Assembly (NCBI GenBank): GCA_947175385.1
Contig: CAMWMN010000007.1
Coordinates: 1 to 46,108, forward strand
DNA length: 46,108 nt
DNA from: an uncultured Clostridia bacterium
GTDB lineage: Bacteria; Bacillota; Clostridia; Oscillospirales; Ruminococcaceae
Reading direction: 5' to 3'
Part shown: in pieces, positions 3,751 to 42,375 of the stretch
Layout of the letters: each line of letters starts with the position of its first letter
Numbering within the stretch: position 1 is the stretch's first letter
Program-made: the position numbers and the translations under genes
Notes under the pieces: model-generated
The model's database searches: none
Told to the model about the DNA's origin: nothing
Seen by the model: the letters and a program-made list of their open reading frames with translations, nothing else

Positions 3751-3981
3751 ATAGTTGTTAGAGAATAGTTGCTAGTAGTTAGTTATTTGGGTTATAGCCA
3801 AAATCTGCTGTTCGGAGAGAAATTTTGGCGCATTCAATTCCGAACAGCGTACCGGCGGCTAGTGCAAATTCAAAACGCAAGCGGCGCGCAGCACCACAAA
3901 GTGGTGTTGCGGGTCGCTTAGCGAACACAGACGAGCGTTAGCTCGTCTGTGTGGTTTTGAATTTGCTATTAAAATAAGGAG
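3751..3981 (+). repeat. R1 dispersed leader element, copy A (full length)
   Basis: About 231 bp, from ATAGTTGTTAGAGAATAG to the Shine-Dalgarno AAGGAG (3976-3981), 7 nt before the antiporter start. Inverted arms GCAAATTCAAAAC (3864-3876) and GTTTTGAATTTGC (3954-3966) enclose two hairpins. Copy F at 42152-42375 on the other strand is nearly identical over its full length; copies B, C, D, E and G are shorter or diverged. Confidence 0.85.
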
Positions 3982-3988
3982 TGAGATT

Positions 3989-5683
3989 TTGCCTGTTGTG
4001 GTTCTTTTGACGGCAGTTGTTATTCTGCTGTGTGTATTCTCTGACCGGATCTCGGGGAAAATCGGCGTGCCTACGCTGCTTATATTTATCGGAATAGGTA
4101 TCTTCTTCGGCTGTGACGGATTGGTGCGGATTCCGTTTGAGGATTACTCTTTCGCGTCAAATTTGTGCGAATGCGCGCTGATAATTATAATGTTTACGGG
4201 CGGATTTTCGATGAGCTGGGACGCTGCGCGTCCCGTGATGGTAAAGGCGGGCGCACTGGCAACGCTTGGAGTGGCGGTTACCGCGGGTGTGACCTGCGCG
4301 TTCTGTTATTTTATATTGAGATTTCCGTTCGCGGAGAGTTTGCTGCTTGGGTCTGTAATCAGCTCCACGGACGCGGCTTCGGTGTTCTCGGTGCTGCGCT
4401 CCAAAAAGCTGAACCTCAAAAACGGAATCGCGCCGCTGTTGGAGGCGGAAAGCGGCAGTAACGATCCGTTCTCGTATATGCTGACGGTGGTTTCGCTGTC
4501 ACTGTTCACCCAAAGCGCGGGGGAAGGCTCTATTGTTGTGATGATGGTGGAGCAGCTTGTGTTTGGCGCGCTGTTCGGTGTGGTCTTGGGAGTATTGGGG
4601 GCGGTCATCGCCAAGCAGTTCAAAACGCAAACCAAGGAATTTGAGTGTATTATGTATCTCGCGTTTGCACTGATGGCATATGGATTCCCCGCGCTGGTCG
4701 GCGGAAACGGGTATTTGTCGGTGTACATCGCCGGAATAATCATCGGAAACGTCAAATCCCCGCGGCATAAATACGGCGGAAAAACTCCCATTAAGCGGTT
4801 TATCCGCAACACATTGGGAGTCACTATTGCCAAATCCGGAGCGAAAATCGCGCCGCCCGAGGCTGTTGTGTTCCTTAATGGCACTACAGGCATATGCCAG
4901 ATCGCGGTTTTCTTCCTGTTGGGACTGCTCTGCACGCCCTCTCAGCTTGTGACGGGCATATTGCCCGCGATTGGTGTGTTCCTCTGTTTGACGCTTATTT
5001 CACGCCCGCTTGCCGTGGTGATTTTCGGCGGGAAATCACCGATTCGCGACAGACTGTTTATCTCGTTCTGCGGGCTTCGCGGAGCGTCTTCGATTGTATT
5101 CGCGATTATGGCGACCGTCAGCGGAATCTCGACCGAACACAACATCTTCAATATCGTGTTCTGCGTGTGCCTGATGTCTATGACGATTCAGGGAACTCTG
5201 CTTCCCGCTGCGGCGAAACGTCTGCGGCTTATCGACAGCGACGCCAACGTTCTCAAGACGTTTAATGACTACAAGGAAGAGTCCGCGATTACGATGATGA
5301 GAATGTACATACCTGAGAATCACAACTGGGACGGCAGACAAATCAGCGAAATTTCCGTGCCCACGGGTTCACTTATCGTAATGGTTAAGCGTGAGGGGGA
5401 AACAATAATCCCGCGCGGGGATACGGTGATTCACGCGGGCGACAGCGTGATTTTGTCCGTGCCGCCGTATGAGAGCGACAAAAGCAGTCTGCCGCTTCGT
5501 GAAGTCCCGATTAGTGACAAGCACATCTGGCTCAACAAGAAAATTCGCGACCTCAACCTCCCGCAGCGGCTGCTTATCGTAATGGTTCAGCGCGGCGAAC
5601 AGCGCATTATCCCATCGGGCGCGACCGAAATTAAGCGCGGGGACGTGGTGGTTATTACCGACACTTTGGAGAGCGCAGAGTGA
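3989..5683 (+). CDS. Potassium/proton antiporter, CPA1 NhaP2/CvrA-like, with two RCK-C domains
   Basis: Inner-membrane cation/proton antiporter of 564 residues. Residues 1-400 hold about 12 hydrophobic segments of the Na+/H+ exchanger fold, with the SSTDAASVFSVL and AESGSNDPFSYM motifs typical of CPA1 proteins. After a linker come two TrkA-C/RCK-C domains (about 435-490 and 505-562), which in relatives sense ligands such as cyclic-di-AMP or nucleotides. The start is taken as TTG at 3989, 7 nt after the AAGGAG supplied by repeat R1; no ATG fits. Its own promoter and a long structured leader suggest control at RNA level. Transport of K+ rather than Na+ is inferred from the RCK-C tail. Confidence 0.88.
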   Translation: MPVVVLLTAVVILLCVFSDRISGKIGVPTLLIFIGIGIFFGCDGLVRIPFEDYSFASNLCECALIIIMFTGGFSMSWDAARPVMVKAGALATLGVAVTAGVTCAFCYFILRFPFAESLLLGSVISSTDAASVFSVLRSKKLNLKNGIAPLLEAESGSNDPFSYMLTVVSLSLFTQSAGEGSIVVMMVEQLVFGALFGVVLGVLGAVIAKQFKTQTKEFECIMYLAFALMAYGFPALVGGNGYLSVYIAGIIIGNVKSPRHKYGGKTPIKRFIRNTLGVTIAKSGAKIAPPEAVVFLNGTTGICQIAVFFLLGLLCTPSQLVTGILPAIGVFLCLTLISRPLAVVIFGGKSPIRDRLFISFCGLRGASSIVFAIMATVSGISTEHNIFNIVFCVCLMSMTIQGTLLPAAAKRLRLIDSDANVLKTFNDYKEESAITMMRMYIPENHNWDGRQISEISVPTGSLIVMVKREGETIIPRGDTVIHAGDSVILSVPPYESDKSSLPLREVPISDKHIWLNKKIRDLNLPQRLLIVMVQRGEQRIIPSGATEIKRGDVVVITDTLESAE

Positions 5684-5691
5684 TTCGGCTA

Positions 5692-5740
5692 TAAACTTGC
5701 GGTTCTTCCCGCCGACTTGGCGGAGAGAACCGCAAGTTTA
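5692..5740 (+). terminator. Terminator after the antiporter gene
   Basis: A 15-bp perfect stem (5692-5706 with 5726-5740) with a GC-rich inner stem (CCGCC/GGCGG). The right arm ends in TTTATATA; the U-tract is short. Confidence 0.75.
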
Positions 5741-6294
5741 TATACAACCTTAACAATTTTTGCGTTGAAAATTCGGTTATTCCTACAAAATTTCAAAAAT
5801 GATGTAACGTTTTACAAATAAAAACACTTTATATAAGTAGAGGGTAAAATTATGCCTGTCACGAACTGTTTAATCGTCTTTTGGGGTTCACATATTAAAG
5901 CAATACCGCATTACGTGGCTTTCCGCTTGCGAGATTTAATACAATAATTGTGCGATGCTTTTTATACAGTCTGTTATATTATGGCGTATTTTTATTGTTA
6001 AAATACCTGTTATGCGATTTTTTATACCTGTTTTTAGAAATATGTTGAACCATATTTCATTTCGTGTTATCATATATGTTGGAATAAATTTCTAAAGCCA
6101 TAGGCTGTTGGTTAATTTCACAGGGAGGTGATAAGGATAAAAGTACATTAAGGCGATGGTGCGATGCGTCAACCCAAAAATTGAACAGATTCCTTGAATG
6201 TGCTTGCTTGGCTGTTCAAATTTTACGTTTTCGAGCCGAGCATAGATTTTATGAAAGATGATGTGGTCTTTACTATATCAAGTAAGGAGATTTT
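5741..6294. other. AT-rich intergenic region, no convincing gene
   Basis: About 550 bp, clearly more AT-rich than the genes. It holds the promoter at 6045-6073 and a GGGAGGTGATAAGG stretch (6123-6136) that looks like a strong ribosome site but is followed by no credible ORF. Two tiny ORFs, 5852-5947 (31 residues after AGAGGG) and 6251-6298 (15 residues, overlapping the next start as ATGA), cannot be distinguished from chance. Confidence 0.5.
6045..6073 (+). promoter_or_regulatory. Probable promoter for the C39-like peptidase/lipoprotein group
   Basis: TTGAAC (6045-6050), 17-nt spacer, TATCAT (6068-6073). It leaves a leader of about 215 nt before the peptidase gene. Confidence 0.55.
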
Positions 6295-7239
6295 ATGAAC
6301 AACAGGCTTGTTAAAGGCATTTCGTCTTGTGTATTGGCAACAATGCTCTTAAGCACAGGTGCGGCGGCACAGACGGCAACACAGAACAACGTGGCTGTCA
6401 GCACGGAGAACATAAGTTTTTCCGGCTGCGTAGATAAAATCAGAAGCGTTTACACCGAAAGATACCCTGAACAGGTTGAGGTGGTTAATGGTGTTATTGA
6501 CGAAGTCACATCAAACGAAACGTTTTTGGAATGTTATGAGTATGAGGGCAAAACTGCGTTCCGCATTCTCGAGGATACGCTGATGGACGCGCTTACGCCG
6601 GCGATAGAACCTTATAATTATGACGGTCAGGTGGCATGGACTTCATATACGGTTCCGGTTATAACACAGATGAATGATTATTATTGTGGTCCTGCGGCTG
6701 TTCAAATGGCTTTGATTGGAAATGGTTTTTTGTCAAATACTTCTGAAAACAGGGAGAATAAAAAGCAACAGGAAATTGCAAAAGAACTATCAACAAGTTC
6801 AAGTGGAGGAACATATATTTTCAAAATAACCAAGTATATGCAAGGTTTCATTTCCAGCGAAACAATTACATATAAATCTAAGTTGTTTACACGTTATACA
6901 TATGACACAATATTTGGTTTGTTTTCAACTTCTTTGCGATCTAACAAAGTAATAATTTTGAATATTCCAGACACATCATATCTTGGCTATTACAACGGGA
7001 AACGGTATTCTGATGACGGACACTATGTAATCATCAAGAAGTTTGATGAAACAAAACGCAAACTCACTGTCGTTGACCCGTTCCATTTGAACAAGGTAGA
7101 CACGGCAACTAACAATTATTTGAACAACGAACACGAAATTTCTCTTGATGATTTAATTTCTCTGGCAAAAGACACGAATTTCTGGGCATCGGTTTATACA
7201 TACACAAAAGACGATAATATCGAATCATATGTATTTTGA
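6295..7239 (+). CDS. Secreted C39-like papain-fold cysteine peptidase
   Basis: 314 residues. An N-terminal signal peptide (about 1-26, cationic start, hydrophobic core, ending ...TGAAAQTA) sends it outside. The second half has peptidase C39-like signatures: a Gln then NDYYCGPAAVQMAL with the nucleophile Cys131, DDGHYVIIKKF with His243 and VDPF with Asp261, in the expected order. Residues 27-110 match nothing I recognise and could be a propeptide or prodomain. Start ATG 6295 follows TAAGGAG. The stop touches the ribosome site of the following lipoprotein gene, so they are probably co-transcribed. Unlike bacteriocin-processing C39 domains it is not attached to an ABC transporter. The substrate is unknown. 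Confidence 0.75.
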   Translation: MNNRLVKGISSCVLATMLLSTGAAAQTATQNNVAVSTENISFSGCVDKIRSVYTERYPEQVEVVNGVIDEVTSNETFLECYEYEGKTAFRILEDTLMDALTPAIEPYNYDGQVAWTSYTVPVITQMNDYYCGPAAVQMALIGNGFLSNTSENRENKKQQEIAKELSTSSSGGTYIFKITKYMQGFISSETITYKSKLFTRYTYDTIFGLFSTSLRSNKVIILNIPDTSYLGYYNGKRYSDDGHYVIIKKFDETKRKLTVVDPFHLNKVDTATNNYLNNEHEISLDDLISLAKDTNFWASVYTYTKDDNIESYVF

Positions 7240-7252
7240 GGAGGACACCACA

Positions 7253-8152
7253 ATGAAAAAACACACTTTGGCACTCACAGTATTGACACTTACGGCGGCT
7301 CTTTTGATGGGCTGCTCCGAAAAAGGCAACACCTCGAATCCCGCACAAGGCGGCGATTCAACTACAACGCAGTCCACAAGTACTGCACCCGAATCTACGG
7401 AATCAACTGAATCCACCACAAGCGAAAGCATACCCGAACCTATTGAAAGGGAGCGTTTCATTTACGGCGAAAAGGAAATTCCCGATATAATTTATCCCCA
7501 ATATCAAGAAGGTGACGGTAGAGCAATAGTAGTCGGCGAGGAATATAAAGCAGGTCTGGACAGTATGGCGTTTGAAACGCATACATTTGGCGATTACACA
7601 ATACGCCTTGTCGGAGATAATGTTAGAACCGATAAAGAGAATTTTCCTAATGCGATTTACGCACAGGAGCTTTATATCGAGGTGGAAAAGAACGGCACAA
7701 TGCTTCATGAGGAGATAACAGATCGTGACCATATACGTTTTCAGTCCCCATATGGAGAGCAATTCAGCCGGGAATATATAATCTATAAAAATCAGATTGG
7801 AAACTATCTGGAAGTTTATGATATGAAACACCCCGTAATAGCTATTCGTTATTTCAATGCCGATAACTTTGACGAATCAATCAGAAAACTTGTTCATTTC
7901 GCGTGGATTGAAGATGATACGGTCGTTGCGCGTTTCTTTGGCGATTTCGCCGAGAACACTGGGGTTATTGCAGGAGCTAGCGAGTTTCCGAGTTTCACAA
8001 AAAGCGGTCAATTTGCTGTTTTCGCCGCGGACGAGTTCAAGATTGAGAATGAAAATACCCTTGTTGACGAGGAAGCGAGAATCAAATACATTTTCGACTT
8101 CGACAAAACAGACGATACCGGGCATTATTATTCCACCGAGAGAATCCAATAA
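7253..8152 (+). CDS. Lipoprotein, first of a tandem pair
   Basis: 299 residues. Start ATG 7253 follows GAGGAGGA; an upstream in-frame ATG at 7229 would overlap the peptidase gene and destroy the signal peptide. Signal peptide MKKHTLALTVLTLTAALLMG with lipobox LMGC, then a Ser/Thr-rich linker (about 27-65), then a globular domain of about 230 residues with no motif I know. The neighbour at 8181-9068 is a clear paralogue: same lipobox region, the shared phrases YGEKEIPNI/DI, FAENTG and YAIFAADEFKIENENT, and the same ending. The duplication includes the ribosome site (AGGAGGACACCACAATG). Probably a membrane-anchored partner or substrate of the adjacent peptidase, by proximity only. Confidence 0.8.
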   Translation: MKKHTLALTVLTLTAALLMGCSEKGNTSNPAQGGDSTTTQSTSTAPESTESTESTTSESIPEPIERERFIYGEKEIPDIIYPQYQEGDGRAIVVGEEYKAGLDSMAFETHTFGDYTIRLVGDNVRTDKENFPNAIYAQELYIEVEKNGTMLHEEITDRDHIRFQSPYGEQFSREYIIYKNQIGNYLEVYDMKHPVIAIRYFNADNFDESIRKLVHFAWIEDDTVVARFFGDFAENTGVIAGASEFPSFTKSGQFAVFAADEFKIENENTLVDEEARIKYIFDFDKTDDTGHYYSTERIQ

Positions 8153-8180
8153 TTTCCCAAATAAACAGGAGGACACCACA

Positions 8181-9068
8181 ATGAAAAAACACACTTTAAC
8201 ACTCACGGCATTAACTCTCGCGGCGGCTCTTTTGGCGGGCTGCTCAAAACCAGACACCTCAAATCCCTCTCAAGACAGCGATTTGAGCACAACGCAGTCC
8301 ACAAGTACTACAACCGAATCCACCACAGAACCTACAATAAGTGAATCCATCCCGGAAACTGTTGAAAAGGGACGGTTCGTTTATGGCGAAAAGGAAATTC
8401 CCAATATAACTTACCCCGAATACAAGGAAACCGATGGCAGATATATCGCGCCTATGGCGGAGGGCAGAGCCCACGGTCTTGAAAGTATGGTTTTTGAAAC
8501 ACATACCTTCAAGGATTATACAGTCAGCCTGGTTGGCAGTTATGTTCGTACTGACAAAGAACACTTCCCGGGTACAATCTTCACACAAGAACTCCACATT
8601 GAAATTGAAAAGGACGGAAAACGCCTCAGTGACGAGTTCGCGGACAGTGTAAATTACACACATCCGTATGGCAGAATGGACACTCGCGAGTTTCTGATTT
8701 ATGAAGACCAAATCGGAGATTATCTGGACATATACGATATGAAAAATCCCGTAATCGCCATGCGTTATTTTGGACGTGAGGATTTGGAAGAATCGTTCAG
8801 AAAAATCGTTGAATTCACATGGATTGAGGACAATACATTTGTTGGCGGATTCCTAGGGAATTTCGCCGAAAACACAGGAGCGATTGTAGGAGGCGGTGAT
8901 TCACTCCAATTCTACTCAGGAGGTCAATACGCGATTTTCGCCGCGGACGAGTTCAAGATTGAGAATGAAAATACCATTGTTGACGAGGAAGCGGGAATCA
9001 AATACATTTTCGATTTCGACAAAACAGACGATACGGGGCATTATTACTCCACCGAGAAGATCGGGTGA
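8181..9068 (+). CDS. Lipoprotein, second of a tandem pair
   Basis: 295 residues, paralogue of 7253-8152. Lipobox LLAGC after MKKHTLTLTALTLAAALLAG, Ser/Thr-rich linker, then the same domain; similarity is strongest at both ends, consistent with duplication and divergence. Start ATG 8181 follows AGGAGGA. The intergenic gap is 28 nt, so the two are one transcript with the peptidase gene. No function can be assigned from sequence. Confidence 0.8.
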   Translation: MKKHTLTLTALTLAAALLAGCSKPDTSNPSQDSDLSTTQSTSTTTESTTEPTISESIPETVEKGRFVYGEKEIPNITYPEYKETDGRYIAPMAEGRAHGLESMVFETHTFKDYTVSLVGSYVRTDKEHFPGTIFTQELHIEIEKDGKRLSDEFADSVNYTHPYGRMDTREFLIYEDQIGDYLDIYDMKNPVIAMRYFGREDLEESFRKIVEFTWIEDNTFVGGFLGNFAENTGAIVGGGDSLQFYSGGQYAIFAADEFKIENENTIVDEEAGIKYIFDFDKTDDTGHYYSTEKIG

Positions 9069-9135
9069 TTTAACCCTCCACGCGTCTTATCAATGGGATT
9101 CGAAACATTCCGCAGAATATTTTCCAAAAACCCCT

Positions 9136-9164
9136 TGACAAACCCTTAATTGTGTGGTATAATG
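9136..9164 (+). promoter_or_regulatory. Promoter of tRNA-Ala
   Basis: TTGACA (9136-9141), 17-nt spacer, TATAAT (9159-9164); 30 bases before the tRNA. Confidence 0.9.
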
Positions 9165-11015: not shown

Positions 11016-11017
11016 GT

Positions 11018-13166: not shown

Positions 13167-14993
13167 ATGCAGGCAATAATACTCGCGGCGGGTATGGGCA
13201 AGCGGCTTAAGGAGCTGACAGAGGACAACACGAAATGTATGGTCCGCGTAAACGGTGTTCCGCTTATCGACAGAACGCTCGGACATCTTGAGAAACGCGG
13301 ACTTAATCGGATTGTTGTGGTTGTCGGCTACTGCGGCGACAAGCTGATTGAACATATCGATTCTCTGGGGCTTAAAACTCCCATAGAGTACGTCCGCAAC
13401 GACATCTACAACAAAACCAACAACATCTACTCGCTCTGGCTCGCGCATAATCAACTCTGCGAGGACGATACTCTGCTCCTCGAATCCGACCTGATTTTCG
13501 AGGAGAGCGTGCTTGACTTGCTGATTGACGATCCGCGCCCCAATCTCGCCCTTGTGGACAAATACGAGAGCTGGATGGACGGAACTTGCGTCAAGACGTG
13601 CGATGAGGGCTTTATCCTGGATTTTATTTCGGGGAAAAACTTCAATTTCTCCGACACCGAGGATTACTACAAGACCGTAAATATATACAAATTCAGCCGT
13701 GATTTCTCAATTCATCAGTATGTTCCGTTTCTGAAAGCGTATTGCGAGGCTCTCGGAAATAATGAGTATTACGAGCAAGTCCTGAAAGTTATCGCTATGC
13801 TCGACCGCTCGATGATTCAGACCAAAAAGCTGACGGGGCAGAAATGGTACGAGATAGATGACGCTCAGGATCTGGATATAGCGCAGTCGCTGTTCCCGGC
13901 GGAGAGCCAGAGCCGTTACGAGTTGGTAGGTTCGCGTTACGGCGGCTATTGGAGATACCCGGGAATGTTGGATTTCTGCTATCTCGTGAATCCGTATTAC
14001 CCCCCCAAAAAGATGATTGCCGAGATGGAAAACAGCTTTGAAACGCTGCTCAGGCAATATCCGTCCGGGCTGAGGGTAAACCGAATCCTCGCGGCAAAGA
14101 ATTTCGAGGTCGGTTACGCGAACATCACTGTCGGAAACGGAGCGGCGGAGCTTATCAACGCTTTGATGGGTTCTGTCACGGGTAAAATCGGAATAATCCG
14201 CCCGACATTCGAGGAATATCCCAACCGTTATTCCGAGCACCGCCCCGGCTCGGGGGATATTGTGACGTTTACGCCAAGCAATGACGACTTCACCTACACC
14301 GCAAACGATATTACTGAATTTTTCGGCGATAAGGATATTTCCACGTTGTTTTTGATAAATCCCGACAATCCCTCGGGGAATTATATCCCGACCAAAGACG
14401 TGAGGGAGCTTGTTTCCTGGGCAGGCGAAAAGGGAATCAAAATAGTTGTGGACGAATCGTTCTCGGATTTCGCTGACGAGGACGACCACACGCTCCTCGA
14501 TACGGGTTACATCAATAAAAACCCGCATTTGACGGTAATCAAGAGCATTTCAAAATCCCACGGAGTTCCGGGGCTTCGGCTCGGAATCGCGGCTTCGGGA
14601 GATACGCAGCTTATTGATGCGCTGTCCGCGAGAATATCTATCTGGAACATCAACTCCTTTGGTGAGTTCTATATGCAGATTTTCGAGAAGTATCGAAAGG
14701 ACTATGAGCACTCGCTGGAGCTGCTACGCGCGGAGCGTAAGCGTCTGTTTGACAAGCTCTCGGAGATAGACGGAATCAGACCGATTCCGTCACAGGCGAA
14801 TTACATTATGGCTGAAATTACTGCCGAAATAAGCGCAGAGGAGCTTGTCGAGAAAATGCTTGCGGAAAACGTGCTGATTAAGAGTTTGACTGGAAAGATA
14901 GATGACGGAAGGCAGTTTATCCGCGTGGCTGTACGAAACGAACAAGAGAATGACATAATGCTCAACGCTCTTAAAAAGAGTCTTATGGGCTAA
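13167..14993 (+). CDS. Fusion of LicC-type cytidylyltransferase and HisC/CobD-type PLP enzyme
   Basis: 608 residues from ATG 13167 after AAGGGAAAGG; an in-frame ATG at 13101 lies inside repeat R2 and is unlikely. Residues 1-250 are a sugar/choline-phosphate nucleotidyltransferase: AAGMGKR loop (7-13), NKTNNIYSLWL (82-92) and YEIDDAQDL (228-236), very like the NNFYSLYL and YEIDSVQD blocks of pneumococcal LicC (CTP:phosphocholine cytidylyltransferase). Residues 255-608 are a class I/II PLP enzyme: NPDNPSG (398-404), DESF (429-432), Schiff-base Lys463 in SISKSHGVPGLRLG, and Arg586. CobD-like members of this fold decarboxylate phosphothreonine or phosphoserine; others are aminotransferases. The fusion could make and then activate an amino-alcohol phosphate as its CDP derivative. 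Which PLP reaction occurs cannot be read from sequence. Confidence 0.85.
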   Translation: MQAIILAAGMGKRLKELTEDNTKCMVRVNGVPLIDRTLGHLEKRGLNRIVVVVGYCGDKLIEHIDSLGLKTPIEYVRNDIYNKTNNIYSLWLAHNQLCEDDTLLLESDLIFEESVLDLLIDDPRPNLALVDKYESWMDGTCVKTCDEGFILDFISGKNFNFSDTEDYYKTVNIYKFSRDFSIHQYVPFLKAYCEALGNNEYYEQVLKVIAMLDRSMIQTKKLTGQKWYEIDDAQDLDIAQSLFPAESQSRYELVGSRYGGYWRYPGMLDFCYLVNPYYPPKKMIAEMENSFETLLRQYPSGLRVNRILAAKNFEVGYANITVGNGAAELINALMGSVTGKIGIIRPTFEEYPNRYSEHRPGSGDIVTFTPSNDDFTYTANDITEFFGDKDISTLFLINPDNPSGNYIPTKDVRELVSWAGEKGIKIVVDESFSDFADEDDHTLLDTGYINKNPHLTVIKSISKSHGVPGLRLGIAASGDTQLIDALSARISIWNINSFGEFYMQIFEKYRKDYEHSLELLRAERKRLFDKLSEIDGIRPIPSQANYIMAEITAEISAEELVEKMLAENVLIKSLTGKIDDGRQFIRVAVRNEQENDIMLNALKKSLMG

Positions 14994-25821: not shown

Positions 25822-25874
25822 TGCGCGTTATAACCCAAAGCCACGCTTTGACGATTTGCCATTAAGATAAGGAG
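25822..25874 (+). repeat. R1 dispersed leader element, copy B (short)
   Basis: GCGCGTTATAACCCAAAGC, then GATTTGCCATTAAGATAAGGAG, in the spoIIAA-spoIIAB gap. Only the conserved ends are present; the hairpin core is gone. AAGGAG (25869-25874) is 5 nt before the spoIIAB start. Confidence 0.6.
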
Positions 25875-25879: not shown

Positions 25880-26332
25880 ATGAGAAAAGAATTAATCAAC
25901 CAATGCGCGGTGCGGTTTCCCGCATTGTCGCGCAACGAAAGCCTGTCACGCTCGGCGGCTGCGTCATTCGCGCTGCAATGCGACCCCACGGTCGAGGAAA
26001 TCGCCGCAATAAAGACCGCCGTATCCGAGGCGGTGACTAATGCCATTGTCCACGGATACAGGGATTGCGAGGGTATGGTGGAGATGACAATGAAGCTGTA
26101 CGGCGATAATACATTGTACATACAAATCAAGGACAAGGGCAGGGGAATCCCAAATGTTAAGGAGGCAATGCAGCCCGCGTTCACCACCGCGCCCGCCGAT
26201 GAGGAGCGTTCGGGGCTGGGATTCACCGTGATGGAGAGCTTTATGGATAAGGTGCGAGTGCGTTCGACAGAGGGGCGCGGAACCTGCGTGACACTGGAAA
26301 AGCGTCTGCGTAAAAAGGGTGATGACGATTGA
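25880..26332 (+). CDS. spoIIAB: Anti-sigma F factor, serine kinase
   Basis: 150 residues, GHKL ATPase/kinase that holds sigma F inactive and phosphorylates SpoIIAA. N-box EAVTNAIVHGY (about 54-64), G1 box DKGRGIPN and the RSGLGFTVMESFMD block are intact. Its stop overlaps the TTG start of sigF. Separated from spoIIAA by repeat R1 copy B, which supplies its ribosome site. Confidence 0.94.
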   Translation: MRKELINQCAVRFPALSRNESLSRSAAASFALQCDPTVEEIAAIKTAVSEAVTNAIVHGYRDCEGMVEMTMKLYGDNTLYIQIKDKGRGIPNVKEAMQPAFTTAPADEERSGLGFTVMESFMDKVRVRSTEGRGTCVTLEKRLRKKGDDD

Positions 26333-30556: not shown

Positions 30557-30752
30557 ATTCAAAACAGCCTATCCGCAGCGCAGTTTGGCGCGTTATAATC
30601 AAAAGCAAGTTATTGGTAACCAGTGCAAATTGCGAAAGCGAGCGTTGCCGAGCACCGCGCAGCGGTGAGAGGTAACGCTCAGCTAGCATGGACGAAAATT
30701 GCAAAGCAATTTTCGTCCGTGCGGTTCGCAATTTGCCAATTAAAATAAGGAG
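30557..30752 (+). repeat. R1 dispersed leader element, copy C
   Basis: Outer stem GCAAATTGCGAA/TTCGCAATTTGC differs from copy A on both sides yet still pairs. The inner hairpin GGACGAAAATTGC/GCAATTTTCGTCC likewise replaces the copy A hairpin. It ends AAGGAG (30747-30752), 6 nt before the flavin reductase start. Confidence 0.78.
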
Positions 30753-30758: not shown

Positions 30759-31334
30759 ATGAGAAAGAATTTAGGAGTTCAACCGGCACTGTTCCCTATG
30801 CCCGTGACTATTGTTGCGGCTTATGACGAAAACGGAGTGGTTTGCGCCCTCAACGCTGCTTGGGCGCAGATATGCGACAGTGACAAGATCGCGCTGTTTA
30901 TTGACGCGGATCACAAGACCACCGCGAACATTATGCAGACAAAGGCTTTCACGGTAAGTATTGCCGATGTTCCGAATATGGAGGTTGCGGACTTCCTCGG
31001 AATCGCGTCGGGAAACAAAATGCCCGATAAGTTTGAGCGGACGGGTTATCACGCGGAGAAGAGCGAGTTTGTAAACGCGCCCGTTATTATCGAGTTCCCC
31101 GTGACGCTTGAGTGTGAGCTTGAGGAGGTCGTTGATACGGAGAATCTTCACGCGGTTGTCGGGAAAATCGTGAACGTCAGCGCGGACGAAAAGGTTATCG
31201 GCGATAAGGACAAAATAGACCCCGCGAAAGTAAACGCGTTGGTGTTTGACCAGTTCCGCTCGGGATATTACTCCATCGGAGAAAAGGTCGGGCAGGCTTG
31301 GAATGCGGGAAAAGAGCTTATGCAAAAGGGTTAA
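30759..31334 (+). CDS. Flavin reductase-family protein (FMN-binding split barrel)
   Basis: 191 residues. The start MRKNLGVQPALFPMPVTIVAA and the NAAWAQICDSDKIALFID, HKTTANIM and FTVSIAD blocks match flavoprotein reductases of the DIM6/NTAB type that bind FMN on a split barrel. Probably a cytosolic NAD(P)H:flavin or electron-transfer protein. It is flanked by the two paralogous small membrane proteins and preceded by R1 copy C, which supplies its ribosome site. Confidence 0.85.
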   Translation: MRKNLGVQPALFPMPVTIVAAYDENGVVCALNAAWAQICDSDKIALFIDADHKTTANIMQTKAFTVSIADVPNMEVADFLGIASGNKMPDKFERTGYHAEKSEFVNAPVIIEFPVTLECELEEVVDTENLHAVVGKIVNVSADEKVIGDKDKIDPAKVNALVFDQFRSGYYSIGEKVGQAWNAGKELMQKG

Positions 31335-31343: not shown

Positions 31344-31459
31344 ATTCAAAACAGCCTATCGGCGGCGCAGTTTAGCGCGCTATAACCCAAAATAAGTTAT
31401 TGGTGATTAGTGCAAATTCCGAAAGCGAGCAGGGCGCAATTTGCTATTAAAATAAGGAG
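31344..31459 (+). repeat. R1 dispersed leader element, copy D (partial)
   Basis: Shares ATTCAAAACAGCCTATC and the following 40 nt with copy C, then GTGCAAATTCCGAAAGCGAG...GCGCAATTTGCTATTAAAATAAGGAG. The inner hairpins are deleted. AAGGAG (31454-31459) is 7 nt before the next start. Confidence 0.75.
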
Positions 31460-31466
31460 GATTATT

Positions 31467-31799
31467 ATGCCGATTGAAAAGCTAACCTATACAAAGGGAG
31501 AAAAAATTGCCGAAATTGCAGCGGCGGCTATTGCCGCGTGCAGTGTTGCGGGATATATCGTTCTTATGGTTTTCGGAAAAGTTTCCGGTGTTGCAATTAT
31601 AATGATTTTGGCAACGTTGATTTTGTATGCCGTGTTTACGCTTTGCTCGACAATGCCCCAACATACCAATGTTTTTACGCACCCCGAGAAGTGTTCGGAT
31701 AAACAATTGCGTTATGCCCGCAGAGGATTTATTATCGGGAAGATCTTGTTTGTCGCGGCGATGTTTGCTGTGACGGCGATGGGTGGCGTTATTGCTTAA
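31467..31799 (+). CDS. Small membrane protein, paralogue 2
   Basis: 110 residues from ATG 31467. Shares the TYTKGE(R/K)IAE opening and overall layout with 30179-30517; three hydrophobic segments. Function unknown. The ribosome site comes from R1 copy D. Confidence 0.7.
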   Translation: MPIEKLTYTKGEKIAEIAAAAIAACSVAGYIVLMVFGKVSGVAIIMILATLILYAVFTLCSTMPQHTNVFTHPEKCSDKQLRYARRGFIIGKILFVAAMFAVTAMGGVIA

Positions 31800-31840
31800 A
31801 TCTTTTGAGCTGCCGTATATTAAAGAAAGGAAATAATTAT

Positions 31841-35015: not shown

Positions 35016-35586
35016 GCATACGAATGGATAGAATAATCTTTGCGATTATACACCCGATAACCGCGCCAAGCGCGTTGGTGATCACATCGTCCAGGTCGCC
35101 CGTGCGCCCAAGCCACGGCTGAATCAGCTCCACCAGACAGGTCGCGCCCAACCCGATAAGGTCGACCGCCCACCATTTCAGACGGCGAAAGCTCATCGGA
35201 AGCAGGAATCCGAGCGGGATAAACAGCACGACATTCGCAATCAGCTCAAACACCGCCGTGGAATCCCCGCGCAGATTCCCCGAAAGGAACTCCCACACCA
35301 TACCGTTGTTGGTATAGTATCCGACCGCGCGGAGATCCTCAAAGCGAAAATCACCGTGAAATAGCTGCTCCGTTGTAATCATCGGCATCCAGACGATAAC
35401 CGTCAGTGCGGCAACATATCCGACAAACAGAAAGCGTGAAAGCTCCAATCCGAATGATTTTCGGGGGAGCTTTTTTATTTTCAGATACGCAATCCGCGCA
35501 CAAAGGTAAACCGCCGCCGCAATAAACGAAACGAACAGCGCGTCGAATACTCCGTACAAAGCGATTGAGTATATAAAATCCCGCAT
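34987..35586 (-). CDS. VanZ-like family membrane protein
   Basis: 199 residues; about five membrane segments. Signature ELIANVVLFIPLGFLLP and ELIQPWLGRTGDLDDVITNALGAVIG is that of VanZ-like proteins. In enterococci VanZ raises teicoplanin resistance by an unclear route; most homologues are uncharacterised. Start ATG 35586 follows AAGGGG supplied by R1 copy G. It converges with and overlaps the VanS-like gene, which suggests mutual transcriptional interference. Confidence 0.88.
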   Translation of the reverse strand: MRDFIYSIALYGVFDALFVSFIAAAVYLCARIAYLKIKKLPRKSFGLELSRFLFVGYVAALTVIVWMPMITTEQLFHGDFRFEDLRAVGYYTNNGMVWEFLSGNLRGDSTAVFELIANVVLFIPLGFLLPMSFRRLKWWAVDLIGLGATCLVELIQPWLGRTGDLDDVITNALGAVIGCIIAKIILSIRMLTRQSAESP

Positions 35587-35593: not shown

Positions 35594-35660
35594 CCCCTTA
35601 TTTTAATAGCAAATTGCCGGTAGGCTGCTGTTAGTTATAACGTTTTTGACTGCGTATCCG
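35594..35660 (-). repeat. R1 dispersed leader element, copy G (partial)
   Basis: Reading on the minus strand it ends GGCAATTTGCTATTAAAATAAGGGG, 7 nt before the VanZ-like start; upstream it keeps TTATAAC and AACAGCAGCCTACCGG, similar to copy F. Inner hairpins are missing. Confidence 0.65.
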
Positions 35661-37213: not shown

Positions 37214-37237
37214 CCGCGCAAAATCGGAGGGATAGAT

Positions 37238-37618: not shown

Positions 37619-37633
37619 GGAGGAGCTATCATT

Positions 37634-37984
37634 ATGAAAGCAGCAGTAATTTTAACGAAGTGCGCGAGAGAGCACGACCTTTTCGGAATCCGTGCGGAGC
37701 AGCGCGAGGACGGCGCGTGGTACGCGACATGGGCGTTTAAGGTAAGCGAACACACCGCGGGACGTGAAAAGTTCGGCGACACCGAGATTTCGGGTAACGT
37801 GTATGTTACCACCGAGTATCCGTCCTGCCCGCATTGCGGAGCAAAGGGGTTCTTCCAGTGTAGCGAGTGCGGCAAGACCACCTGTTGGAACGGCGAGAAC
37901 GAAACCGTTTGCGAGTGGTGCGGAAACGCGGCGGAAACCTCAGCGGAGGACAGCTTTGAATCCCTGACAGGCGGCGGATTCTGA
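37634..37984 (+). CDS. TerY-C-like zinc-ribbon protein
   Basis: 116 residues; ATG 37634 after AAGGAGGAG. The first 60 residues form a small domain (MKAAVILTKCAREHDLFGIR...ATWAFKVSEHTAGREKFGD); then a cysteine cluster Cys65-Cys68, Cys76-Cys79, Cys84 and Cys93-Cys96 in CPHCGAKGFFQCSECGKTTC...CEWCG. This pattern is like the TerY-C metal-binding domain of tellurium/stress (TerY-P) gene groups, where it travels with a protein kinase and a PP2C phosphatase. The kinase is indeed the next gene; no VWA or phosphatase gene is in the window. Confidence 0.75.
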   Translation: MKAAVILTKCAREHDLFGIRAEQREDGAWYATWAFKVSEHTAGREKFGDTEISGNVYVTTEYPSCPHCGAKGFFQCSECGKTTCWNGENETVCEWCGNAAETSAEDSFESLTGGGF

Positions 37985-38148
37985 TAGTTGCCGGTTAGTC
38001 GGGTTATAGCCAAAAGCAAGTTATCCGTGACTAGTGCAAATTCAAAACGCGAGCAACACGTTACACCACGTAGCGATGTAACGTGTTGCTCAGCGAACGC
38101 AGACGCGAAGCGTCTGCGTGGTTTTGAATTTTCCATTTAGATAGGGGG
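37984..38148 (+). repeat. R1 dispersed leader element, copy E
   Basis: GCAAATTCAAAACGCGAGC on the left and GTTTTGAATTTTCC on the right close the outer stem; inner hairpins AACACGTTACA/TGTAACGTGTT and CGCAGACG/CGTCTGCG replace those of copy A with matched changes on both sides. Ends ATAGGGGG, 6 nt before the kinase start. Confidence 0.8.
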
Positions 38149-38154
38149 ATTCTG

Positions 38155-39426
38155 ATGTTTAAGATTGGCGATAAAGTGCCGCTGGAATTGGGCGGCAGCG
38201 CGGAGATTCTGGAGGTTCTCGGACAGGGCGGTCAGGGAATCGTGTACCGCGCTCTCTTCGCGGATAAGGAGTACGCGCTGAAGATGTATTTCAGCAATAA
38301 ACTGCGCCGCCCCGAGATTTTCCGCGATAATCTGCGTACGCTGTGCGAGGACAAAACGGCGCACCGCGCGTTTCTGATGCCGCGGTTGCTCACAGCGCAG
38401 ACCGATGAGGGATTCGGGTTTATGATGGACTTGATCCCGAGCGAGTACAAGCCGTTTTCGGATATTCTGAACGCGCGCGTTAAACTGTCGGGGCTGTATT
38501 CGGTGGTTAACTCCGCGATTCGGATAACCGCCGCGTTCCGGGATTTACACAACAACGGCAAGAGCTATCAGGATATGAACGACGGCGGTTTCTTCATTCG
38601 CCCGACCGACGGTGATGTGCTTATTTGCGATTGTGACAATATCGCGCCTTACGGCGAACATCTGGGAATCGCGGGCAAGCCCGGATATATGGCTCCCGAA
38701 ATCGTTCGCGGGGAGCGCGCGCCGGATAAGTTCACCGACAGATACTCGCTAGCGGTGGTGCTGTTTCGGCTGTTATTGCGCGGCGACCCGCTGGAGGGCA
38801 AGCGCGTGCTGAAGAGCGTCTGCCTTACCGAGGAGGCAGAGCGGCGGCATTACGGATTCGAGCCGCTGTTCGTGTACGACCCTGAGGACGATTCCAACCG
38901 CCCCGTGCGCGGTGTGCATAACAACATCATCAAGTTCTGGCGGATTATGCCGGACTATATCCGAGAGGCATTCGAGTTTTCGTTCACCACGGGGCTTTCC
39001 GAGCCGTCCAAGCGGCTGATCGAAAAGCAGTGGCTGGACTTGCTGAAACGACTGCGCGGCGACATAACCGCGTGTTCGTGCGGAATCCAGAACTTCCTTC
39101 CCGCTTGTGAAACGGACGAGGAGGGCTTGATGATCTGCGTGTGCGGGAAGCATTATCCCAAGCCGCTTACCCTCAAGGGCGCGAAAGAGAGTGTTCTGCT
39201 GTTTGACGGAGCGCGGCTGTTTGACGAGGATACAAACGTCATCGCGGAGGTTGTCCGTAATAAAAAGAACCCCGCGCTGTGGGGCTTGAAGAATCTCGGC
39301 TCCGAGAGCTGGAATTGCGTTCTCCCGAACGGCGAGGAGAAGTCCATAGAACCCGAAAAAGCCGCGCCAATCTTCACGGGTACGGGAATCGAAATCGGCG
39401 GGGAACGATTCGAGATAGCCGAGTGA
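38155..39426 (+). CDS. Protein kinase-like protein with altered catalytic loop (TerY-P type)
   Basis: 423 residues. Kinase N-lobe: glycine loop GQGGQGIVY (23-31), Lys43 in ALKMY. Instead of HRD the catalytic loop reads SYQDMNDGGFF (Asp140 kept, the usual Asn five residues on is Gly145), and the DFG position reads LICDCDN (Asp159/Asp161). MAPEI (179-183) is kept. C-terminal part: a zinc-ribbon-like CSCG...CVCG region (about 307-330) and a small beta-rich domain. Such variants occur in TerY-P kinases linked to a TerY-C protein, which is the gene just upstream. Whether it is active cannot be told from sequence. Confidence 0.8.
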   Translation: MFKIGDKVPLELGGSAEILEVLGQGGQGIVYRALFADKEYALKMYFSNKLRRPEIFRDNLRTLCEDKTAHRAFLMPRLLTAQTDEGFGFMMDLIPSEYKPFSDILNARVKLSGLYSVVNSAIRITAAFRDLHNNGKSYQDMNDGGFFIRPTDGDVLICDCDNIAPYGEHLGIAGKPGYMAPEIVRGERAPDKFTDRYSLAVVLFRLLLRGDPLEGKRVLKSVCLTEEAERRHYGFEPLFVYDPEDDSNRPVRGVHNNIIKFWRIMPDYIREAFEFSFTTGLSEPSKRLIEKQWLDLLKRLRGDITACSCGIQNFLPACETDEEGLMICVCGKHYPKPLTLKGAKESVLLFDGARLFDEDTNVIAEVVRNKKNPALWGLKNLGSESWNCVLPNGEEKSIEPEKAAPIFTGTGIEIGGERFEIAE

Positions 39427-39436
39427 GGTGAACAAA

Positions 39437-39862
39437 GTGCCAAAAAAGATTCGACTTGCGGTGAACATGGCATTTTCACTTATTCTGATGATTGTGCTGA
39501 TTGCTAAGATTATGGGTATGATTACGCATTGGAGTGACCTTGCGGAGAATTGGGATTTGAATGGTGCTCCTACATTTTTGACGTTGTTTTTTGTCTTTGG
39601 GATATATCCGCTGATTGCTGTTACAGCATTGTCTGTGTGGCTTAAAGGAGTTCCGCCGATTGTGTTCAGCACATTGGGATTAGTGGGCGGTTTTGCGCTT
39701 TACTTCCTTGAAACAATTTTCAACGCGCTGTATATACGAGCCGGGAGTACCCTATATATGGGCTTTACTCCGATTGTTTCAATGTGTACATATTTAATTT
39801 CGTTTTTTATGCTGGTAATTTCAATCGTAGAGTTGGTTATTGCAAAGAGAAAAAAGTTTTAA
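39437..39862 (+). CDS. Four-helix small membrane protein
   Basis: 141 residues if started at GTG 39437, 6 nt after GAGGTGA; GTG 39428 is the alternative. Four hydrophobic segments (about 9-28, 47-66, 75-97, 112-135) and a KRKKF end. No family recognised. It lies 10 nt after the kinase-like gene and is probably in its transcript. Confidence 0.65.
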   Translation: MPKKIRLAVNMAFSLILMIVLIAKIMGMITHWSDLAENWDLNGAPTFLTLFFVFGIYPLIAVTALSVWLKGVPPIVFSTLGLVGGFALYFLETIFNALYIRAGSTLYMGFTPIVSMCTYLISFFMLVISIVELVIAKRKKF

Positions 39863-39925
39863 GCCGAAATTGTTAAGGGAACGAAGTCTTCAATAGAGTT
39901 CCATAACAAAATAGCCGGAGGGAAT

Positions 39926-40381
39926 ATGAAGCTTGTAATTCAGCGTGTAACGCGCGCCGCCGTTTCCGTGAACGGCGAAACCGTGGGGAAAATCGGCGGC
40001 GGATTTTTGGTGCTTTTCGGAGCGGGCGCAGAGGATACCCGCGCGGATTGTGAGGTTCTCGCGCGAAAACTCGTCAATCTGCGGATTTTCGCGGACGAGA
40101 ATGGAAAGACCAATCTCTCGCTTAAAGACGTTGGCGGGGAACTGCTGATAATCTCGCAATTCACGCTGTACGCGGACTGCCGCAAGGGGAATCGTCCGAA
40201 TTTTTTAGCCGCAAAAGAGCCGCGAGAGGCGGAATCGCTTTATGAGTACTTCTGTGAGCTTTGCGCAAATGAGATACCCACGGTCGAGCGCGGAATTTTC
40301 GGCGCGGATATGAGCGTGGAGCTTGTCAATGACGGACCGTTCACGGTGATTCTTGAGTCCCGAAACGGCGAGATATTATAG
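39926..40381 (+). CDS. dtd: D-aminoacyl-tRNA deacylase
   Basis: 151 residues; ATG 39926 after GGAGGG. Removes D-amino acids mis-attached to tRNA. Starts MKLVIQRVTRAAVSV, with the family motifs SQFTLYADCRKGNRP (77-91) and NDGPFT (135-140, the GP motif region). Cytosolic quality control. Ends 14 nt before the next gene. Confidence 0.94.
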   Translation: MKLVIQRVTRAAVSVNGETVGKIGGGFLVLFGAGAEDTRADCEVLARKLVNLRIFADENGKTNLSLKDVGGELLIISQFTLYADCRKGNRPNFLAAKEPREAESLYEYFCELCANEIPTVERGIFGADMSVELVNDGPFTVILESRNGEIL

Positions 40382-40395
40382 AAAGAGGTGTGGTT

Positions 40396-40860
40396 TTGAC
40401 TGTCAGAAATGCTGAGCCGCGTGATATTCCGCGTATTACGGAGCTTTTGTCGCAGGTGCTGGAAATTCACGCAGAAAGGCGTCCCGATTTGTTTCAATCG
40501 GGAACGACAAAATATTCCGAAAGCGAGCTTGCGGAGATAATCGCGGATAACGAGCGTCCGATTTTCGTTGCCGAGATAGACGGAATCGTGCAGGGCTATG
40601 CGTTTTGTGTTTTCCAACATCACGAGGAGCGGAACACTCCGCGCTTTACAACACTGTACATTGACGATTTATGCGTGGACGAAAAATGCCGCGGTATGCA
40701 TATCGGACGGACACTGTACGAATTTGTTCTGGATTTTGCCCGAAAAAACGGCTGTTATAACGTGACGCTCAACGTTTGGGCGTGTAACGAATCCGCGATG
40801 AGGTTCTATGAGAAGTGCGGACTTTCCGTGCAGAAAATCGGAATGGAAAAAATCCTATAA
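40396..40860 (+). CDS. GNAT-family N-acetyltransferase
   Basis: 154 residues from TTG 40396, 5 nt after GAAAGAGGTG; GTG 40390 is a less likely start. GNAT fold with acetyl-CoA pyrophosphate loop CRGMHIGRTLYEF and LNVWACNESAMRFYEKCGL. The acceptor is unknown; some relatives are RimI-like. Co-transcribed with dtd. Confidence 0.85.
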   Translation: MTVRNAEPRDIPRITELLSQVLEIHAERRPDLFQSGTTKYSESELAEIIADNERPIFVAEIDGIVQGYAFCVFQHHEERNTPRFTTLYIDDLCVDEKCRGMHIGRTLYEFVLDFARKNGCYNVTLNVWACNESAMRFYEKCGLSVQKIGMEKIL

Positions 40861-40898
40861 AATCAAAGCCGTGGGAACGAATCCCACGGCTTTTGATT
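40861..40898. terminator. Bidirectional terminator between the GNAT and SCP2 genes
   Basis: AATCAAAGCCGTGGGA (40861-40876) pairs with TCCCACGGCTTTTGATT (40882-40898, one bulge) around ACGAA. Serves both convergent genes. Confidence 0.82.
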
Positions 40899-41223
40899 AT
40901 TTGACCTTTTTAATGAGCTTGGAGAATTCCAGTGCCTTGCCCAAATCGCCCTCAACCTTGAGCTTGCCGACGGTGTATGCGGCAACGGGGTCGAGTTTTC
41001 CCTCGACCAGCTTGTCGAAATTCGCGGGATCGATTGTAATCGCGCAGGAGCGGTCGTTGTACTCGTAAGGCTCAACATTCACCTTGCCATCCTTGACCTC
41101 CACATAGAACACGCCGCCGTCCTTGCCCGTCAGGTTTATCTGAACAGCCAGAAACGGAGCGCCCTCCGCGTTCTGCTTTGAAGCGATTCCGCGAACCTTT
41201 GCCAAAGTTTCGTCAAATGTCAT
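40897..41223 (-). CDS. SCP2 sterol-carrier domain protein
   Basis: 108 residues, ATG at 41223 after AAAGGAG. A stand-alone SCP2 domain, with AITIDPANFDKLVEGKLDPVAAYTVGKLKVEGDLGKAL typical of its lipid-binding core. Bacterial single-domain versions are thought to bind lipids or acyl chains; the ligand is unknown. Confidence 0.83.
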   Translation of the reverse strand: MTFDETLAKVRGIASKQNAEGAPFLAVQINLTGKDGGVFYVEVKDGKVNVEPYEYNDRSCAITIDPANFDKLVEGKLDPVAAYTVGKLKVEGDLGKALEFSKLIKKVK

Positions 41224-41235
41224 AGTCTTAAATCT

Positions 41236-41336
41236 CCTTTCTTTATATAAAGGTCAGTCTGTAAATAAACCCGCAATTCTCATCGCCGCAGGCGGTGAGA
41301 ATTGTGTAAAATCAAGGCTGCCCTTTCTTTATATAA
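41236..41336. repeat. 15-bp direct repeats flanking a hairpin in the SCP2 leader
   Basis: CCTTTCTTTATATAA occurs at 41236-41250 and 41322-41336. Between them is a strong hairpin CAATTCTCATCGCC/GGCGGTGAGAATTG (41274-41304). The minus-strand copy includes the ribosome-site sequence AAGAAAGG. Either a small duplication or an insertion flanked by target duplications. Confidence 0.6.
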
Positions 41337-41340
41337 TGGT

Positions 41341-41369
41341 ATTATATCACACTTTCTCGAAAATGTCAA
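41341..41369 (-). promoter_or_regulatory. Promoter of the SCP2 gene
   Basis: On the minus strand TTGACA (41369-41364), 17-nt spacer, TATAAT (41346-41341). Confidence 0.88.
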
Positions 41370-41389
41370 GCAAGTTTATATATGGTCTG

Positions 41390-42145
41390 TTATTCATAAT
41401 CCGCGATGTCGATCCACGTAAGCAGCAGCTCGCGCTCTTCGGGACGCTTGAATTTAAGCTGCGCCGCCGCAACGATCGGCAGCCAGTCCTGAACATACTT
41501 GATATCCGTTTTGGTTTTCGCGCAGTACAGCTTGAGATACTTCTCAGCCAGCTCGGTGCGGTGTTTCAGGCAGAAATTGAGATACGTTTTCGCAACGTCC
41601 GCAGAGGCGTTGCCCTGTTTCGCCTTGAGCCAGTCCACAATGAACGTGCCCTCGCTGTTGATGATGATGTTTCCGGGTTCAAAGTCGCCGTGGCAGATCT
41701 TTACATGGTTCGGCATGGAGTTCAGCCGTGTCAGCAGCTCGTACTTTTTCACATCGTCAATGATGTCCAGCCCCTCGATCGAACGTTTGAGATAGTCCTT
41801 AAGGCGGCTTATCTTCGCCGACCGCAGACCGTTTATCTCAATCTGAAGGTCAACCATCTTTTCGAGATACTCGTCCGTCTTGTCGGGATTCTCGCGCATA
41901 AGCTCCTCAAGCGTCTTGCCCTCGATGTAGGTGTAGACGATCGTCCACTTGCCGTCCGCTTTTGAGATTTCCAGAAACTGGGGAATCTTTGTGAATCCCG
42001 TTTCCTCCACGCGCGTGTGCGTCAGAGCCTCATACAGCACAACGCTTTTCGGCTCGTCAGCGTCCTTGAACACCTTCACGCACTTGTCATCGCACTTGTA
42101 AACCATTACCTTTTCGCTTTCCGAAATCAAATTTTTAAGCTCCAT
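41390..42145 (-). CDS. APH-family small-molecule kinase
   Basis: 251 residues from ATG 42145. Aminoglycoside phosphotransferase/choline-kinase-like fold: Lys24 in KCVKVFKD, the catalytic loop CHGDFEPGN (His152, Asp154, Asn159) and metal Asp171 in IVDWLKAKQGNASAD. No signal peptide. Substrate unknown; the two Walker-like positions are intact. It is divergent from secA and led by R1 copy F. Confidence 0.82.
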   Translation of the reverse strand: MELKNLISESEKVMVYKCDDKCVKVFKDADEPKSVVLYEALTHTRVEETGFTKIPQFLEISKADGKWTIVYTYIEGKTLEELMRENPDKTDEYLEKMVDLQIEINGLRSAKISRLKDYLKRSIEGLDIIDDVKKYELLTRLNSMPNHVKICHGDFEPGNIIINSEGTFIVDWLKAKQGNASADVAKTYLNFCLKHRTELAEKYLKLYCAKTKTDIKYVQDWLPIVAAAQLKFKRPEERELLLTWIDIADYE

Positions 42146-42151
42146 AATATT

Positions 42152-42375
42152 CTCCTTATTTTAATGGCAAATTCAAAACCACACAGACGAGCAAAGCTCG
42201 TCTGTGTTCGCTAAGCGACCCGCAACACCGCAAAGCGGTGTTGCGCGCCGCTTGCGTTTTGAATTTGCGCTTCATTCCGGTAGGTTGCTTTGGGTTATAA
42301 CGCGCCGGAATTGCGCCCCAAACAGAGGATAAAGGTTATAATCCCGATAACTAACAACTATTCTCTAACAACTAT
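42152..42375 (-). repeat. R1 dispersed leader element, copy F (full length)
   Basis: On the minus strand nearly identical to copy A, from ATAGTTGTTAGAGAATAGTTG to ATTAAAATAAGGAG, 6 nt before the APH-like start. Inverted arms at 42167-42179 and 42256-42268. The region to 42489 holds no gene. Confidence 0.85.

Follow-up and report, generated by a model that had tools for sequence, protein, structure and literature searches.

A candidate mobile family of structured leader repeats placed directly upstream of translation-start signals in one genus of Oscillospiraceae

The window considered here, i.e., the whole stretch of 46,108 nucleotides that was analysed (GenBank assembly GCA_947175385.1, contig CAMWMN010000007.1, positions 1 to 46,108), comes from an uncultured Clostridia bacterium and is contig C7 of a genome of 2.47 Mb in 171 contigs, referred to below as G000. 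It contains seven copies (A to G) of a leader element, each of which ends in a Shine-Dalgarno (SD) site 5-7 nt ahead of a start codon. These stretches had been predicted from the letters of the sequence, and their coordinates and strands were found to be as claimed; the genes behind them are indeed unrelated (a Na+/H+ exchanger, a SpoIIAB-like HATPase, a flavin reductase, a protein with no Pfam match, a Pkinase, a VanZ protein and an APH protein). It is probable (roughly 0.6) that the copies belong to a non-coding mobile repeat family of one Oscillospiraceae genus, which would be placed in the sense direction directly 5' of translation-start signals and tolerated as an RNA leader. The features are listed below; scores in bits are those of covariance model R1 unless stated otherwise, and z-scores refer to the minimum free energy (MFE) of the predicted fold.

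3751..3863, plus strand: copy A, left leader modules with a GTTATAA-type motif and CTAGT at the end (from sequence)
3864..3966, plus strand: copy A, core, predicted three-way junction P1/P2/P3 (z -11.5), with fully complementary P1 arms at 3864-3876 and 3954-3966; 125.9 bits (3864-3981), 104.2 bits with tail-free model R2
3967..3981, plus strand: copy A, tail TATTAAAAT (3967-3975) and SD AAGGAG (3976-3981); TTG start at 3989
25822..25874, plus strand: copy B, truncated, with left module, tail and SD (25869-25874); SpoIIAB-like gene, ATG at 25880
30557..30624, plus strand: copy C, left leader modules; those of the sister species are similar
30625..30736, plus strand: copy C, core, P1 GCAAATTGCGAA / TTCGCAATTTGC (z -10.3); 106.4 bits (30625-30752)
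30737..30752, plus strand: copy C, tail and SD (30747-30752); flavin reductase, ATG at 30759
31344..31459, plus strand: copy D, hairpins deleted, with tail and SD (31454-31459); ATG at 31467; 27.3 bits at 31412-31459
35594..35660, minus strand: copy G, truncated, with left module, tail and SD (35599-35594); VanZ-like gene, ATG at 35586
38036..38148, plus strand: copy E, core (38036-38133, z -6.5), tail and SD (38143-38148); 105.3 bits; left module from 37984, kinase-like gene with ATG at 38155
42269..42373, minus strand: copy F, left leader, directly after TATAAT (42379-42374; from sequence)
42152..42268, minus strand: copy F, core (42167-42268, z -9.6), tail and SD (42157-42152); 130.4 bits; APH-like gene, ATG at 42145, minus strand

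Within the window, the pattern TTTGCNATTAAAATAAGGRG with up to three mismatches matches six copies (A, B, C, D, F and G), compared with a mean of 0.07 in shuffled sequence, and none of 100 shuffles reaches six; copy E falls beyond the three-mismatch limit. Copies A and F had been described as near-identical over about 225 bp, which is overstated, as their identity is 80% over about 228 bp, reaching 92% for core and tail alone. The common fold was recovered in A, C, E and F, which are the only copies with a full core, and it does not extend to the rest: B, D and G consist of left module and tail, or nearly so. Copy D lacks both the hairpins and the fold (z +1.2), and the core is missing from B (53 nt) and G (67 nt), as judged from their sequence with no folding run.

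The seven copies are a sample of a large family, which became apparent when the covariance model was run on the genome and its relatives. At E≤0.001, R1 gives at least 150 matches in G000 and at least 150 in G018, the sister species (Oscillospiraceae bacterium isolate Mgla_MAG_34-bin_10, JAAVIC01), although the weakest of them may include antisense shadows of palindromic cores; the shared DNA of the two species is about 90% identical. A DNA search of G000 with copy A yielded 52 matches, short and antisense ones included (from the best 40 of 169 candidates), and the 3' end TTTGCNATTAAAATAAGG with up to three mismatches occurs 173 times in that genome, as against 24 times for the reversed pattern. 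A sample of 396,682 bases from G018 contains 62 copies scoring at least 54 bits, so that the whole genome would hold about 400 if the sample is typical; 55 gene starts lie behind these 62 copies, and with 390 open reading frames (ORFs) of at least 80 aa, by a rough caller, about one gene in seven carries the element. Across the genus, R1 matches occur in 14 of 43 genomes, G000 included, which is a lower bound given that R1 was built on two species and the filters were strict. Among 245 sampled genomes of the order searched at E≤1e-4, only G000 has matches and the other 244 have none among the best 14 candidates scored per genome. The exact pattern retrieved 20 stretches from genome_contigs, of which 16 derive from the sister metagenome-assembled genome (MAG), and the other four (Massilia, Aneurinibacillus, a Chloroflexi MAG and Odyssella) have no element upstream, by eye. 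Virus-borne spread was considered and rejected, as neither of the two exact matches in viral_contigs has the element around it, by eye.

The placement of the element was assessed in 134 strong copies: 62 from contigs C1 and C17 of G018, 7 from G018 C29, 31 from G000 C5, C6 and C8, 30 from nine further G000 contigs and 4 from the window. C1 and C17 were picked by length among contigs with a known match, and some of the sampled contigs were picked for matches or synteny. All 134 are oriented with a gene and run into a start codon (five judged by eye), which extends to the family what had been proposed for the seven. An SD followed by a start codon stands behind 107 copies, whereas in nine the ATG lies inside the tail with no SD, a class without a random control of its own. 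Another 13 are upstream units of tandem arrays; 12 of these arrays reach an SD and start codon by script, and the thirteenth continues into a third unit detected by the tail-free model. The five copies that the script left unclassed were identified by eye as two array members with a start behind them, one variant SD that the script did not include and two ORF starts, the ORFs being about 40 codons long. On the antisense side a start was found for 2 of 134, and 3% of random positions pass the SD-plus-start test. As R1 itself contains the tail and SD, R2 was built without them; at E≤1e-4 it gave 99 matches in 442,790 bases (71 sense matches on R1 copies, 27 antisense shadows and the third array unit), recovered every R1 copy of at least 54 bits, and found no core away from gene starts in this sample. 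The cases without an SD include a choloylglycine-hydrolase-family gene, whose protein starts Met-Cys, and a response regulator (MFNILVVDDH), so their start codons look right. In 34 of the 42 copies measured, P1 ends 20-23 nt ahead of the first ATG, by a rough regular-expression measure.

Such a distribution might arise if selfish DNA inserted at random and survived only upstream of SD sites, other insertions being harmful. Housekeeping genes (dnaX, guaA) carry the element, so this place is tolerated. However, none of the 134 strong copies lies elsewhere, whereas pneumococcal repeats favour the gaps between convergent genes (PMC3049150). Random insertion thus appears highly improbable.

Covariation in the core argues for a structured RNA, as originally proposed, and stands well above shuffled and slid controls, which ignore the relatedness of the copies. 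The three-way junction was obtained from a plain MAFFT alignment of 41 copies (A1), in which 31 of 43 predicted pairs show double changes in at least one sequence. The alignment of 122 distinct copies (A2; 12 pairs in P1, 21 in P2 and 10 in P3) and that of 33 copies representing ten further species of the genus (A3; 41 rows less four full and one truncated from the window and three antisense) were fitted to the model and lean towards the fold. In A2, 96.7% of 5079 cells are paired, both sides have changed in 35 of 43 pairs, and the covariation score is 0.493 as against 0.175 when shuffled and at most 0.091 with slid partners; the left flank is conserved at -31..-1 in the same number of copies. 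In A3 the stem sequences differ, 95.8% of 1256 cells are paired and 38 of 43 pairs show double changes (with slid partners, only 33-41% of cells pair). Several cores (L061:4451-4646, L075:1822-2018, L089:3446-3641 and L077:3742-3928) have a second palindrome, GTGACCGCCCAAAGCGCGGC...GGCGGTCAC or nearly so, within the apical loop of P2, which brings them to about 190 nt.

An RNA fold accepts G-U and rejects A-C pairs, whereas palindrome correction in DNA is blind to the difference, and the two kinds of mismatch can therefore indicate which strand folds. In A2, G-U exceeds A-C by 135 to 16 cells in P2 (90 to 15 without the one pair that is most often G-U) and by 25 to 12 in P1; over all stems the ratio is 39 to 8 in the other species (A3) and 40 to 11 in A1, counted by hand with pair 21-60 omitted. 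These cells are non-independent events. It thus appears that the gene-sense strand of P2 is selected for folding, and that of P1 less clearly, while P3 behaves like an ordinary palindrome. With P3 being symmetrical, the G-U excess is hard to attribute to transcription-linked C-to-T mutation; an identical pattern would be expected from single-stranded DNA of that sense.

Comparison of the two sister species reveals both shared and empty sites, and the latter bear out the mobility suggested at the outset. Among 84 non-tandem starts of G018 tested, 53 have syntenic sequence in G000 and 40 of these share the element; in the opposite direction, 80 were tested, 43 were syntenic and 37 shared, mostly at the same sites. 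Of the 13 G018 starts without a model match in the sister, seven were taken as clean empties (one with another upstream neighbour), and at the remaining six the element is truncated or variant, the gene has been lost or orthology is doubtful. The SD is identical in filled and empty alleles at C1:230888 (AAGGAGTTACTATG) and at pfk (L077:3742; AAGGAGAAATAAACTATG), and both species likewise have AAAAAGGGGTGAGCGATTTG at L070:542 and AAGGAGG at C29:9290; at L061:7359 and C6:846 the SDs differ between the species and occupy the same place, and at C1:222244 neither species has one. Since most of these sites keep their SD with and without the element, the SD is native, and the element stops directly ahead of it. 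The proposal that the element supplies ribosome sites is therefore rejected, the SD usually being present already at element-free orthologous starts.

At pfk, the filled leader measures 409 nt and the empty one 36 nt between TAAAATA and AAGGAG. At L070:542, 96 nt stand in place of 4 nt, apparently within the end of the upstream gene, with a stop codon brought in (frame by eye). Further filled and empty lengths are 183 and 9, 292 and 38, 305 and 68, and 245 and 97 nt; at C1:166372 the unfilled side is the longer (386 as against 177 nt) because another gene lies there. The left junction was found at seven of eight sites, C6:846 being the exception. Thirty pfk loci were fetched and eight parsed, including those of G000, which is also empty, and G018; in the six other species no element was present in the 110 nt read, and four have ATAAGGAG. 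The G018 copy would therefore most simply be a gain.

Where the element is shared, its core differs. At the 40 shared starts the median core identity is 63%, whereas the DNA downstream, over as much as 300 nt, reaches 92.7%; in global alignment, orthologous and random cores have the same median (69.3 in both cases), and only 4 of 40 cores find their best match in the ortholog. In the flavin reductase pair (site of copy C), the left module and SD context are alike and the stems differ. A weak vertical signal resides in the left flank (-30..-1), where 11 of 39 pairs exceed the random-pair 95th percentile, compared with 4 of 39 for the core. The element persists at shared sites while its core is exchanged. 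At the site of copy B the sister species has two full units in tandem, and such tandem units may be intermediates.

Three side observations concern the same sites. A different hairpin type (GGTTTCGGAATGCTGGC...GCCCAAGCATT) occupies sites that carry an R1 core in the other species (G000 C5 ~13,560-13,680, L176; G018 L076 ~6,400-6,480) and may be another subfamily that uses this address. In the G018 ortholog of copy F (C29:3140-3540, L168), another repeat (CCCAATA..CCTTACAG...ACGTAATATTGG) lies between promoter and leader; its end lies close to a TATAAT-like box, it may carry a promoter, and it is also present in G000 C6, immediately ahead of 846-965 (L170). Finally, the small gene behind copy D (31467-31796, within 31412-31840 of the window) is missing in G018, where the element is joined straight to the start of the next gene (C29:18758-18997); recombination between two similar ribosome-binding site (RBS) regions, or a gene insertion, would fit.

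Exchange of cores could also be read as gene conversion among old resident leaders, with palindrome correction at the DNA level producing the covariation and no RNA function involved. The swapping of cores between sites and the near-perfect palindrome of P3, which lacks a G-U bias, are in keeping with it. Nonetheless, strand-blind correction would not yield the large excess of G-U over A-C in P2 and in other species, nor does conversion among residents suit pfk, where relatives lack the element and a gain is the simplest reading. We consider this explanation quite improbable.

Equally doubtful is a spread as RNA-derived leader copies, in which a transcript from the transcription start to the SD would be copied back into another gene, one leader replacing another between the promoter or an upstream stop codon and the SD. 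Such copying would account for a 3' boundary fixed at the SD or start codon, the ragged 5' ends, the sense-only orientation, the lack of clear target-site duplications (TSDs), the selection on an RNA fold and the junctions at pfk, of which the left lies directly after the -10-like TAAAAT plus A and the right directly before the SD. If true, the family would be a bacterial leader element resembling short interspersed nuclear elements (SINEs) and targeting ribosome landing sites.

The genes downstream are diverse in G018 as well: DNA polymerase III gamma/tau (dnaX), GMP synthase (guaA), FeoB, pyruvate kinase, IspD, an amidohydrolase, carbamoyl-phosphate synthase small chain, the choloylglycine hydrolase family, a response regulator, ATP synthase D, orotidine monophosphate (OMP) decarboxylase, the DHODB Fe-S subunit, FapA, two phosphorylases, ThiF, V-ATPase I, HIT, DUF3810 and one without a match. 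No common pathway and no regulon are visible among the 27 downstream proteins scanned. A bacterial small signal recognition particle (SRP) RNA gene was noted near one copy (L031:1062-1160, minus strand).

Within this context, the suggestion of a new class of regulatory leader holds only in part: the structured RNA and its covariation stand, whereas regulation has so far gained no support from the scanned genes or from neighbours with separate copies. A host regulatory leader would require that a trans-acting protein or RNA recognise the junction and control many genes, duplicated copies being kept for their function. Strand-specific selection on the fold, retention at 40 of the 53 orthologous starts and the near-fixed distance to the start codon are all consistent with it. 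However, the proteins scanned share no function, same-strand neighbours (pyrimidine-synthesis genes and two V-ATPase genes) have copies of their own, the element is missing in most relatives at the two genes compared, and R1 matches only about a third of the genus genomes. A regulatory role of this kind therefore seems unlikely, if less so than the explanations above.

A repeat that is aimed, whether mobile or copied, is the best reading, as it accounts jointly for position, orientation, gain, exchange and tandem units. The element sits before the native SD, or before the start codon where there is no SD, mostly replacing the native upstream sequence, and would be read as part of the mRNA, in which selection would keep the three-way-junction RNA. 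New units would join or replace existing ones at this position next to the SD, while older ones would shrink or vanish. An initiating ribosome occupies a footprint around the start codon. We propose that a fold that closes on itself, its outer stem ending 20-23 nt before the ATG, would leave the ribosome this room and that the insert would therefore be tolerated.

Several observations weigh against an aimed mobile repeat. The retention of shared sites also fits a useful leader. At the junctions, native sequence is mostly replaced and not split, as judged by eye, unlike in ordinary transposition, and no TSD was seen by eye at the eight sites, where no formal TSD test was made. At C1:166372 an SD-like sequence, a weak AAAAGG, is present in the empty allele only. 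P3 shows no G-U excess in A2 (12 as against 15 A-C cells). In folding calculations for 42 copies, the mean unpaired probability from SD to start was 0.543 for real sequences, 0.536 with shuffled cores and 0.520 with the core deleted, and predicted SD accessibility beat shuffled cores in only 20 of 42. No mobilising enzyme was identified in searches limited to PF01797 and PF00078, and the Y1 transposase (PF01797) has no match in the draft assemblies of G000 and G018.

Some of the candidates behind these points can be set aside. The idea that the fold opens the RBS is unsupported by the folding calculations, and a Y1 transposase is rejected as the agent given the lack of a match in either draft assembly; PF01797 occurs in 2 of 12 genus genomes tested, one of which (G035) has no R1 match. 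A reverse transcriptase was likewise rejected, as its presence does not track the element: RVT_1 (PF00078) is absent in G006, G013, G023, G033, G024 and G031, all with R1 matches, and present in eight other element genomes (G000 and G018 among them) and in five without an R1 match. Open frames that span about 1050 aa and match RVT_1 weakly lie at G000:C104:5030-5464 and G018:C25:16215-16649, and similar frames occur in G001 and G065, neither of which has an R1 match. As for duplications, the first unit of array L061 (7240-7352) is flanked by AAGGTGACTAAC and AAGGTGATTAAC, a 12-nt near-repeat with an SD-like AAGGTG, which could be a TSD.

Small interspersed structured repeats are a known kind of element. 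The pneumococcal BOX, RUP and SPRITE repeats (PMC3049150) are likewise small, structured and present in many copies, and BOX is modular and in several cases transcribed; these repeats look parasitic and occur in excess between convergent genes, where an insertion does least damage. In contrast to BOX and RUP, which have terminal inverted repeats (TIRs) and TSDs (same source), the present family lies at gene starts in the sense direction only and shows no clear TSD; an excess between convergent genes is not seen, as each of the 134 strong copies leads to a start codon. Miniature inverted-repeat transposable elements (MITEs, including ERIC and Correia) are also short and non-coding, with inverted-repeat ends to which P1 may correspond and no gene of their own seen here. 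However, the P1 arms pair while their sequence varies by copy and species, native sequence is mostly replaced, and place and orientation are strict. Repetitive extragenic palindromes and their mosaic elements (REP/BIME) with their Y1 transposase RAYT resemble the family in their many extragenic palindromes per genome, whereas the two species have no Y1 match. Rfam cis-regulators such as riboswitches and T-boxes share a covarying leader RNA fold just upstream of the RBS, but here the genes are many and unrelated and cores are swapped between them. An Rfam search of the window at gathering thresholds found two tRNAs only, and a search of 10 loci at E≤1 gave the element no match. The element is not described in the accessible parts of the literature on repeats and leaders searched (PMC3049150, PMC2229807, PMC2267715, PMC10969869), which covers few subscription journals, nor does that literature contain the combination of a strict place 5' of the SD, sense-only orientation, exchanged cores and sense-strand selection.

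A family in which position is conserved and content exchanged amounts to a natural leader library, from which the effects of structure on translation and mRNA decay could be read across many genes. It also raises the question of how such an element moves, i.e., of a machinery that would recognise translation-start regions, in DNA or RNA, together with their strand sense.

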